Source: Acidobacteriota bacterium
GTDB lineage: Bacteria > Acidobacteriota > Terriglobia > Terriglobales > Acidobacteriaceae
Assembly (NCBI GenBank): GCA_003225075.1
Contig: QIAP01000060.1
Coordinates: 1-44,845, forward strand
Reading direction: 5' to 3'
DNA length: 44,845 bases
Under the pieces are notes generated by a model. The model had not been told where the DNA came from, did not search any database, and was given only the letters and a program-made list of their open reading frames with translations. Positions 41,820 through 44,845 of this stretch are shown piece by piece. Numbering within the stretch: the first letter of the stretch is position 1; each line of letters begins with the position of its first letter. Made by a program: the position numbers and the translations under genes.

Positions 41820-41993
41820 CTCTCAACTTGCCCAGCTTTTAGTTCTTCATCCGTCGCCCTCATCAGATCGGTCTGCAATCTGGCTCCGCCCCGCAAAAGC
41901 GTATCGGCTGCAACCCACAGAGTTTGAAGGAGTTGCCGACCGCTGATCGTATCTAAATCACTGCAACCGCGAGGCTTGCAGACTCATCTAAAC

Positions 41994-42023
41994 CTTGACA
42001 ACGATGTACTCAAGTTCTATCAT
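41994..42023 (+). promoter_or_regulatory. dnaK promoter overlapping an HspR-type HAIR operator
   Basis: TTGACA (41995-42000) and TATCAT (42018-42023) are separated by exactly 17 bases, an excellent sigma-70 promoter. CTTGACA (41994-42000), a 7-base spacer and ACTCAAG (42008-42014) match 12 of 14 positions of the HspR-associated inverted repeat HAIR, CTTGAGT-N7-ACTCAAG, known from actinobacteria. The operator covers the -35 and the spacer, so a bound HspR would block RNA polymerase. Transcription would start near 42030, giving a leader of about 65 bases to the ATG at 42096. The rest of the gap since glmS (41820-41993) shows nothing else I can support. Confidence 0.6.
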
Positions 42024-42095: not shown

Positions 42096-44042
42096 ATGAG
42101 CAAAACGATCGGAATTGATCTCGGGACCACCAATTCCTGCGTCGCGGTGATGGAGGGTGGCGAGCCCAAGGTCATTGCCAATGAAGAAGGCGGTCGCACT
42201 ACGCCATCGGTGGTTGGCTTTACCAAGACCGGAGAGCGTCTAGTCGGCCAGGTGGCCAAGCGGCAAGCCATCACTAACCCGGAGAACACAATTTATTCCA
42301 TCAAGCGGTTCATGGGACGCCGCTACGACGAAGTTAGCGAAGAAATGAAGATGGTGCCGTACAAGGTGGAGCGAGACGGCGATAACGTCGCCATAGTTGC
42401 GCAGGGCAAGAAGTACACTCCGCCTGAGATCTCGGCGATGATTCTGCAAAAGCTGAAGAAAGCAGCAGAAGACTACCTCGGGGAGAAAGTTACCGACGCC
42501 GTTATCACGGTTCCTGCTTACTTCAACGATGCGCAACGCCAGGCCACTAAGGATGCTGGCAAAATCGCGGGATTAGACGTGAAGCGCATCATCAATGAAC
42601 CTACGGCGGCAGCACTGGCCTACGGCCTGGATAAAGGTAAGGACGAAACCATTGCCGTCTATGACTTCGGCGGCGGGACCTTCGATATTTCGATCCTCGA
42701 GGTGGGCGAAGGTGTGATCGAAGTAAAGGCTACCAATGGTGACACCCACCTCGGCGGCGACAATATTGACCAGCGCATTGTCGACTGGCTGATTGACGAG
42801 TTCAAAAAAGACGAAGGTCTCGACCTTCGTGGCAAAGGCAATGAGATGGCCCTGCAGCGTCTACGCGACGCGGCGGAGCGCGCCAAGATCGAACTCTCCA
42901 CCACCATGGAGCATGAGATCAACCTGCCGTTTATAACGGCTGATGCCAGCGGTCCGAAGCACTTGGTCAAGAGACTGACCCGGGCCAAGTTGGAATCCAT
43001 GGTCGAGGACATCATTCAGCGTTCGGTCGGCCCCTGCAAACAGTGCATGAAAGACGCGGGCGTGGACGCCACCAAGATTAACGAAGTTGTGCTGGTCGGC
43101 GGCCAGACCCGCATGCCGCGGATTCAAGCATTGGTAAAGGAGCTGTTCGGCAAGGAGCCGCACAAGGGAGTGAATCCGGATGAGGTCGTCGCTATCGGCG
43201 CGGCTATACAGGGTGGCGTGCTCAAGGGCGAGGTCAAAGACCTGCTCTTGCTCGACGTGACCCCGCTGACCCTGGCGATCGAGACCCTGGGCGGGGTGGC
43301 TACCCCAATGATTCCGCGCAACACGACCATTCCGACTCGCAAAACGGAGACGTTCTCGACCGCGGCTGACAATCAGACCTCGGTTGAAGTCCATGTACTG
43401 CAGGGCGAGCGTCCTCTGGCACGCGACAATCGCACGCTGGGCAAGTTCCACCTGACGGGAATTCCCATGGCGCCGCGTGGTATGCCGCAAATCGAGGTGA
43501 CATTTGACATCGACGCCAACGGCATTCTCAACGTGACCGCCAAAGATACGGCCACCCAGAAGGACCAGAAGATCACGATCACGTCGTCTTCGGGTCTGAG
43601 CAAAGAGGAAGTCGAGCGCATGGCGAAGGAAGCCGACGCGCATTCGGCGGAAGATAAGGCCAAGCGGGAAGAGATCGACTCGCGTAACCAGCTCGACTCC
43701 ATGGTTTATCAGTTGGAGAAGATGCTGCGCGAATCGGGCGATAAGATCTCCGGTTCCGAGCGTGGTGACGTCGAAAACGCCATCGCCGATGCCAAGAAGG
43801 CGCTCGAAGGCACCGACAAGGCTGCCATGGATCAGGCGCGGGAACGTCTGACCCAGGCCTCGCACAAACTGGCGGAGCAGATGTATAAGGCTACGCAGGC
43901 GCAGGGCGCCCCGGGCGCGGAACCAGGCGCTGGCCCGCGAGCGGGAGCAGGAGTAGGTCCGGCGCCAAACGCCAATGGACAGCCAAAGAAAGACGAGGGT
44001 GTAATCGACGCCGAATACGTAGACGTCGAAGATAAGAAGTAA
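42096..44042 (+). CDS. dnaK: Molecular chaperone DnaK (Hsp70)
   Basis: A 648-residue Hsp70 with ATPase-driven substrate binding, acting with DnaJ and GrpE in protein folding. The N-terminus [20 protein letters not shown] and the phosphate motif [37 protein letters not shown] and [15 protein letters not shown] define the nucleotide domain. The [19 protein letters not shown] linker leads to the substrate domain and lid. The C-terminus is a Gly/Ala/Pro-rich linker followed by [14 protein letters not shown], the usual tail. AGGAGG lies 6 bases before the ATG. Its promoter overlaps a HAIR operator. Two small genes separate it from dnaJ. A grpE gene is not in the window. Confidence 0.98.
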
Positions 44043-44192: not shown

Positions 44193-44360
44193 TTGCAATT
44201 CGAAGTAAACGGTCAATCTTATTTTTTAACTTTTGTAGAGGATGAAAGATGCTGGTGTGTCTTTGCGCCCACGGCATCGGGGATGCGCCGCATCCCGGTC
44301 TACGTGGACGCGGCGACGCACGAGCGATTCAGCCTGCCCGGGGAAGTGGCAAAGCATTAA
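44193..44360 (+). CDS. Small 55-residue protein with a TTG start
   Basis: A TTG at 44193 lies seven bases after GGGAG and begins MQFEVNGQSYFLTFVEDERC, then WCVFAPTASGMRRIPVYVDA and ATHERFSLPGEVAKH. The alternating strands and the run from FVEDERCWCVFAPTASG to IPVYVDA read as a small compact beta-rich protein. As I recall them, similar short proteins occur in Acidobacteriota next to heat-shock or other genes, always unnamed. There is no signal peptide and no membrane span. The 5' part is more AT-rich than its surroundings. It lies between dnaK and dnaJ on the same strand, after the dnaK terminator-like hairpin. Confidence 0.7.
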   Translation: MQFEVNGQSYFLTFVEDERCWCVFAPTASGMRRIPVYVDAATHERFSLPGEVAKH

Positions 44361-44387
44361 GCGAATCGTGTGTTTTGGGGAGACACA

Positions 44388-44579
44388 ATGAAGCGCATAA
44401 ATCATCCGCGAGCAACCGGTGGCCAGGCGTTGGCGGAGTACGGGTACAAATGGGCCACGATCAGCGCCAGGCTCAGCGTCAAGCACATAGCTGTCCAGGC
44501 ACTGACCGCGATGTACGGTAAACGGGCTGCCCGGGCTGCGATTCGCGAAGCCAGGCGTGTGTCGAGAAGGACGCGGTAA
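44388..44579 (+). CDS. Small basic protein of unknown function
   Basis: A 63-residue strongly basic protein, MKRINHPRATGGQALAEYGY KWATISARLSVKHIAVQALT, then AMYGKRAARAAIREARRVSR RTR. GGGGAG lies five bases before the ATG, which supports translation; a frame extension to 44370 is less likely. The C-terminal Arg/Ala-rich helix could bind nucleic acid or ribosomes, but this is a guess from composition. It ends 42 bases before the dnaJ start and lies on the same strand, so it may be cotranscribed with dnaJ. Confidence 0.5.
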   Translation: MKRINHPRATGGQALAEYGYKWATISARLSVKHIAVQALTAMYGKRAARAAIREARRVSRRTR

Positions 44580-44621
44580 ACTCGGGGAGACAAATTGTCT
44601 GAAGTTGCGCTCTCGTAAGCC

Positions 44622-44845
44622 ATGGCCACTCAAACCAAAGACTACTACGGCCTGCTCGGAGTAAAAAAGTCTGCCTCAGCAGACGAGATCCGCAAGGCTT
44701 TCCGTAAACTTGCGCGTAAGTACCATCCTGACGTAAATCCCGGGGACAAGACTGCAGAAGAGAAATTCAAGGCCATCTCCGAGGCCAACGATGTTCTCAG
44801 CGATCCCAAGAAGCGCAAGATTTACGATCAGCTAGGCTTTTACTC
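44622..44845 (+). CDS. dnaJ: Chaperone DnaJ, N-terminal part (cut by the window end)
   Basis: The first 74 codons of DnaJ, the Hsp40 partner that stimulates DnaK's ATPase. The J domain is complete enough to identify: [40 protein letters not shown] with the essential HPD, then [28 protein letters not shown]. The rest lies beyond the right edge. It might be the longer DnaJ or a CbpA-type shorter form; the truncated end does not tell. Confidence 0.95.

Follow-up and report, generated by a model that had tools for sequence, protein, structure and literature searches.

A HAIR-like site overlaps the predicted dnaK promoter

The stretch of DNA analysed here, referred to as the window, spans 44,845 bases and constitutes the entire contig C143 of a 4.79 Mb soil-type Acidobacteriota MAG comprising 259 contigs (genome G000). 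Close to its right edge, the forward strand carries dnaK (42096–44042; 648 aa), which matched NF001413 with 1016.7 bits against a cut-off of 648, followed by the 5' part of dnaJ (44622–44845), which is cut by the contig end. Two small open frames located between dnaK and dnaJ (44193–44360 and 44388–44579) yielded no Pfam match at E 0.01, and the second of them is also open in an overlapping contig, C53.

Upstream of dnaK and on the same strand we identified the putative HspR operator CTTGACA-N7-ACTCAAG (41994–42014), a HAIR-like site ending 81 bases before the dnaK ATG (42096) and present, in the form delineated below, before every dnaK examined. Reading the sequence directly, the left arm CTTGACA occupies 41994–42000, the seven-base gap (ACGATGT) 42001–42007 and the right arm ACTCAAG 42008–42014. 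Compared with the HAIR sequence CTTGAGT-N7-ACTCAAG, 12 of the 14 arm bases match, with 7/7 for the right and 5/7 for the left arm, in agreement with the two departures already pointed out in a preliminary description of this DNA. The -35 hexamer TTGACA (41995–42000) also lies within the operator's left arm and is followed, after a spacer of 17 bases (42001–42017), by a predicted -10 hexamer TATCAT (42018–42023). These positions are consistent with the overlap between the repeat and a TTGACA-N17-TATCAT promoter (41995–42023) that the same description had proposed. Directly upstream of the -35 box lies a CATCTAAA block (41985–41992, forward strand) that is partly conserved in relatives, with an A at position -5 in 48 of 64 distinct dnaK sites; this block may represent an UP-type element or provide an additional repressor contact.

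Taken alone, the motif is at chance level in the window: at ≤3 mismatches, HAIR matched once against 1.30 matches expected, and one or more matches occurred in 71 of 100 shuffles. Likewise, the loose form CTTGA-N11-TCAAG was found at nine places in the whole genome compared with eight in the reversed control, seven of the nine being inside long open frames. The pattern TTGASW-N7-ACTCA, which covers neither the hsp20 site (GCTCA) nor the lon site (TTGAGC), gave four matches in the same genome and five in the control, and TTGACA-N7-RCTCA gave four against four in the reversed control, namely at dnaK, upstream of hsp20 and two within open frames. As the genome counts are at the level of the controls, pattern counts alone do not show that the site is real, and we judged it to be real from its position and its conservation.

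Conservation of the site before dnaK

We read 76 dnaK upstream regions (within 400 bases), corresponding to 64 distinct 30-mers. All of them stem from related genomes and do not represent independent events, and the set includes repeats (G009 and G017 each twice, as well as L120, which equals contig C194 of G001 in length), whereas the second dnaK of G012 and the cut dnaK of G003 were left out. TTGACA-N7-[AG]CTCA was present in 76/76 regions; the pattern being the search term, its constancy means that zero regions failed. The preliminary description had named the absence of the repeat from related dnaK promoters as an observation that would speak against an operator, and all 76 regions carry the pattern.

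Among the first 30 dnaK loci, our own genome included, 26 exhibited the exact TTGACA-N7-ACTCA and two the GCTCA form, while in the last two the pattern was situated nearer the start codon, outside the initial scan window. Eight further genomes showed the same pattern before dnaK. Furthermore, we analysed 80 named HspR loci comprising 980,092 bases, all titled Acidobacteriota and many of them Terriglobia/Acidobacteriales MAGs, with L188 belonging to Acidicapsa dinghuensis. A dnaK start is contained in 36 of these loci, with the pattern ≤250 bases away in 36/36, and a search of both strands of the full 980,092 bases returned 36 matches to TTGACA-N7-RCTCA, exclusively before the 36 dnaK starts. 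TTGACA-N7-RCTCA marks dnaK promoters in Terriglobia.

These data bear on one rival explanation, a chance resemblance in which an unrelated ACTCAAG happens to lie next to a good -35 box. The match count in the window, which equals chance, and the looser or similar genome patterns, which stay at control level, are in line with such a coincidence, but the conservation over 76/76 dnaK regions (64 distinct 30-mers) refutes it, leaving it with next to no probability.

At the level of single positions, both left-arm departures from HAIR were present in 64/64 distinct dnaK sites, and TTGACA was likewise found at 64/64. Across the same sites the -10 box had A as its second base in 54/64 and T as its last base in 57/64, CTCA being more constant than this box, and spacer positions 10–11, between the arms, showed only 0.22 and 0.27 bits. 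The outer C at -1 and the outer G at +19 were each observed in 42/64 and both together in 32/64 sites, a co-occurrence that may be taken as a weak sign of symmetry. The number of exact sites per dnaK promoter was one in 74/76 regions and two in 2/76. L055 and L259, from two sister-family genomes, have tandem TTGACA-N7-RCTCA copies before dnaK, 26 bases apart.

The hspR gene and its linkage to dnaK–dnaJ

Searching our genome with the HspR model NF047375 revealed one gene above the cut-off, located on contig C53, with 107 bits against 105; rescoring of the protein gave 106.5 bits, which is a small margin. A genome devoid of hspR, the other outcome regarded beforehand as adverse to the operator, is thus not what this match indicates. 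The next matches of this HspR were the HspR fused-dimer model with 98.5 bits and Zn-responsive regulators with at most 55.1 bits. A weak sequence match (E 2e-4) was also obtained between this HspR and the chain labelled DafA in PDB 9dvi.

Bases 1–568 of C53 (L012:1–568) align without gaps to window positions 44278–44845 at 94.4% identity, which makes C53 the very probable continuation of the window beyond dnaJ, apparently from a slightly different strain. An overlap at this identity also points to a mixture of strains in the MAG. Beyond the window, C53 carries the whole dnaJ (L012:345–1568), an amino-acid permease (L012:1909–3165), hspR (L012:3256–3657; 133 aa, NF047375) and a histone-deacetylase-domain gene (L012:3743–4741). 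An hspR gene near dnaJ, possibly just beyond the right edge, had been anticipated in the preliminary description and is located there on the overlapping contig, with the permease intervening. In G001, which belongs to the same genus, dnaK, dnaJ and hspR are on one contig in that order, and no permease-sized open frame is present between dnaJ and hspR.

Among 41 genomes, our own included, 39 contain an hspR match (E 1e-15), of which 19 score below the NF047375 cut-off, G001 among them (103.2 bits). In 28/41 genomes hspR follows dnaK on the same strand at a distance of ≤8 kb. The other 13 comprise our own genome, where the genes are on two overlapping contigs, seven genomes with the genes on separate contigs, G017, where they are 1.87 Mb apart, G009 and G020 without an hspR match, and G037 and G038 without a dnaK match. 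Consistent linkage was observed for the named loci, as a dnaK start was found upstream of hspR on the same strand in 31 of the 41 having 8 kb upstream; in the remaining ten, dnaK is inverted in L189, only the gene body is present in L154, four have dnaJ alone and four have neither. For hspR itself, no HAIR with fewer than four mismatches was detected within 300 bases upstream in the 27 of 30 loci where the start was readable.

Related sites at hsp20–clpB and lon

Following the suggestion of the preliminary description to search for HAIR before clpB and other heat-shock genes, we found a like site at hsp20–clpB and a full HAIR at lon. In our genome, a TTGACA-N7-RCTCA match of the GCTCA form is located 108 bases upstream of hsp20 (L208; PF00011), which is followed by clpB on contig C190. 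There is no convincing HAIR immediately before clpB, because hsp20 precedes it. To survey clpB, we used 31 genomes, from which 30 loci were fetched and 26 had a readable clpB start. Upstream of clpB, nine of these 26 exhibited the strict site and five a one-base variant; the script detected no site in 11/26, three of which have cut upstream DNA, while L102 and L105 show a CGCA variant. The hsp20–clpB site of G007 lies beyond the clpB locus examined.

The stricter form of the pattern yielded 25 matches in 12 genomes compared with eight in the reversed control. Eight of the matches were before dnaK, nine before hsp20, one before hrcA and seven elsewhere, and clpB stands behind hsp20 at those nine where surveyed, G021 and G023 being outside the clpB survey.

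At lon we identified the full-consensus HAIR CTTGAGC-GAATCAC-ACTCAAG on the reverse strand (C183:7029–7049; L019), which fits TTGAGY-N7-ACTCAA. Among the nine CTTGA-N11-TCAAG places of our genome it is the only one that fits this Streptomyces form, and about 0.07 exact TTGAGY-N7-ACTCAA sites are expected per such genome at equal base frequencies. Between this site and the first lon ATG there are 7 bases, a position at which it would overlap the ribosome-binding stretch. The lon open frame comprises at least 497 residues and matched TIGR00763 with 567 bits over 481/795 positions; since the locus is truncated, the score stays short of the 608 bits required for a whole protein. The best -35/-10 pair near the lon HAIR (8/12) is located upstream, and no good pair overlaps the site. 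The exact lon-type form was absent from the other 265 loci fetched, none of which includes another lon. In our genome, HAIR-type sites are found before several heat-shock genes (dnaK, hsp20–clpB and lon), yet not before hspR.

CIRCE and the HrcA branch

A perfect CIRCE (TTAGCACTC-N9-GAGTGCTAA) was found before groES in our genome. Overall, two CIRCE-like places were detected, both on contigs other than that of dnaK, and none with ≤3 mismatches was present at dnaK, where the preliminary description had seen none either, or at the genome's own hrcA. The stretch around this hrcA (L253) showed no TTGASW-N7-RCTCA site, and none of the four TTGACA-N7-RCTCA matches of this genome is located before groES. 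Elsewhere in the genome there is an hrcA–grpE–dnaJ cluster, in which dnaJ was recognized by a profile match, whereas we take the other two genes to be hrcA and grpE from reading their proteins. On contig C74 of G023 (L257), TTGACA-N7-ACTCA is located 119 bases before a gene that, from a reading of its protein, is presumably hrcA, which suggests that in G023 HrcA is itself under HspR control.

This distribution allows us to weigh the possibility that HrcA, using a degenerate CIRCE, controls dnaK and that HspR acts on other genes only. Both the hrcA–grpE–dnaJ cluster of our genome and the site before hrcA in G023 could be seen as pointing in this direction. Nonetheless, with no CIRCE at ≤3 mismatches at dnaK while a perfect one precedes groES, we regard HrcA control of dnaK as highly improbable.

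Genomes without an hspR match

The two genomes without an hspR match differ in their completeness. G020 is 76% complete, whereas G009 is rated 100% complete and revealed no hspR even with the family profile, but only a distant MerR protein of 290 residues. In G009 (L254, contig C7) other genes are located behind dnaK, yet its dnaK promoter contains TTGACA-N7-ACTCA. The stricter pattern is absent from this entire genome, and clpB has no site upstream. G009 counts against the HspR reading, as the dnaK site is kept without the repressor gene. Also unfavourable to it are the narrow margin of the HspR score together with the 19 genomes below the cut-off, the dnaK left arm that never reads TTGAGY, the genome counts of four against four, and a strict hsp20–clpB site in only 9/26 loci.

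The same genome is in favour of a rival explanation, according to which RCTCA is contacted by RNA polymerase or by a regulator other than HspR within a strong housekeeping promoter, the linkage to hspR being coincidental. Besides G009, which keeps RCTCA without hspR, the invariably fixed distance between RCTCA and the -35 box would be accounted for in this way. Against it, we found 41 TTGACA-N16..18-TANNNT sites in the 980 kb of named loci, 32 with RCTCA and nine without; as these nine lack it, RCTCA is no general promoter feature, and in these loci the pattern is restricted to dnaK. In addition, dnaK, hsp20 and, in one case, hrcA account for 18 of the 25 stricter matches, and the remaining seven are near the eight of the control. 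RCTCA also corresponds to the known right arm of HAIR, and lon is preceded by a full HAIR that lies away from any good -35 box. On balance, a polymerase or other-regulator contact appears unlikely, with a small share of the probability, and we favour HspR as the protein recognizing RCTCA.

A predicted HspR circuit

Based on the presence of hspR and its linkage, the conservation of the dnaK site, the sites at hsp20–clpB and lon, and the CIRCE at groES, we read the dnaK site as an operator at which HspR, by occluding the -35 box, very likely represses dnaK. An HspR dimer with its MerR-type DNA-binding domain would occupy TTGACA-N7-ACTCAAG at ordinary temperature, where it would cover the -35 box together with the spacer and exclude RNA polymerase from the dnaK promoter. 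We infer this exclusion from the HspR-only promoters of Campylobacter, at which the core promoter is covered, as far as the accessible text of the source goes (PMC7464140). Upon heat or protein damage the repression would be lifted, so that dnaK, dnaJ and hspR could be made. Since hspR follows dnaK–dnaJ and we detected no operator in front of it, the circuit is expected to be self-limiting. Control of hspR would likely proceed by read-through from dnaK, a presumed cotranscription that in our genome would have to pass the intervening permease. DnaK may act as the partner that sets HspR activity, the role it has in Streptomyces. The same repressor should act on hsp20–clpB and lon, leaving groES to HrcA and CIRCE, and at lon HspR would block behind the transcription start or near the ribosome site.

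Furthermore, the dnaK operator of Terriglobia might be a composite, in which one half-site is the -35 hexamer TTGACA and only RCTCA is specific for HspR, whereas the symmetric HAIR would survive only where no -35 box is needed, for example at lon. We consider this proposal evenly balanced between right and wrong; the occurrence of a symmetric HAIR at lon but not at dnaK is as it predicts. If true, repressor and RNA polymerase would read the same six bases, and operator strength and promoter strength could not evolve apart.

Comparison with known systems and significance

HspR heat-shock circuits are best known from actinobacteria. The system is a known one, and the additions made here are its occurrence in Acidobacteriota and the constant asymmetric dnaK operator. 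For Streptomyces coelicolor, the available text of PMC2687793 gives TTGAGYN7ACTCAA as the HspR consensus and the dnaK operon, clpB and lon as targets, with a division in Streptomyces between HspR for dnaK, clpB and lon and HrcA for groE. The situation described here is alike in the linkage of hspR to dnaK–dnaJ, in the identical right arm ACTCAAG and seven-base gap, and in the sites at dnaK, the clpB operon and lon with groE left to HrcA. With CTTGAGC and ACTCAAG, our lon site has the same arms as the dnaK probe of S. coelicolor given in the same text (PMC2687793). In contrast to S. coelicolor, the left arm at dnaK is TTGACA, never TTGAGY, at every site read, and hsp20 stands before clpB. Likewise, three HAIR copies are reported for Streptomyces dnaK in the accessible part of PMC6102357, compared with the one or, in two regions, two exact sites found here. 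As judged from these sequences, the lineage keeps the right arm of HAIR, while at dnaK a perfect -35 hexamer takes the place of the left one.

Helicobacter pylori and Campylobacter jejuni are similar in having a MerR-type repressor beside HrcA, and at the HspR-only targets of C. jejuni the repressor covers the core promoter (PMC7464140, PMC6102357). In these species the HspR sites at groE and hrcA are located far upstream, with HrcA on the core promoter, whereas groES of our genome has a CIRCE and no TTGACA-N7-RCTCA match. The HspR regulon of Deinococcus radiodurans, comprising hsp20, dnaK, dnaJ, lonB and clpB in the available text of PMC2687793, is close to the one proposed here, although D. 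radiodurans belongs to a different phylum and the likeness rests on regulon membership, not on operator sequences. We found no account of HspR in Acidobacteria in the literature searched, which, given its poor coverage of subscription journals, is weak evidence of absence; in the accessible part of a Granulicella omics paper, dnaK figures among the lowered transcripts and the term HspR is absent.

Taken together, our analysis would extend an HspR circuit with the Streptomyces target set of dnaK, clpB and lon to Acidobacteriota, with the short pattern TTGACA-N7-RCTCA as a marker of Terriglobia dnaK promoters. G009 offers a natural test of the role of the site in the absence of the repressor, and the dnaK promoter itself represents a natural case of a predicted repressor site fused with a -35 box.
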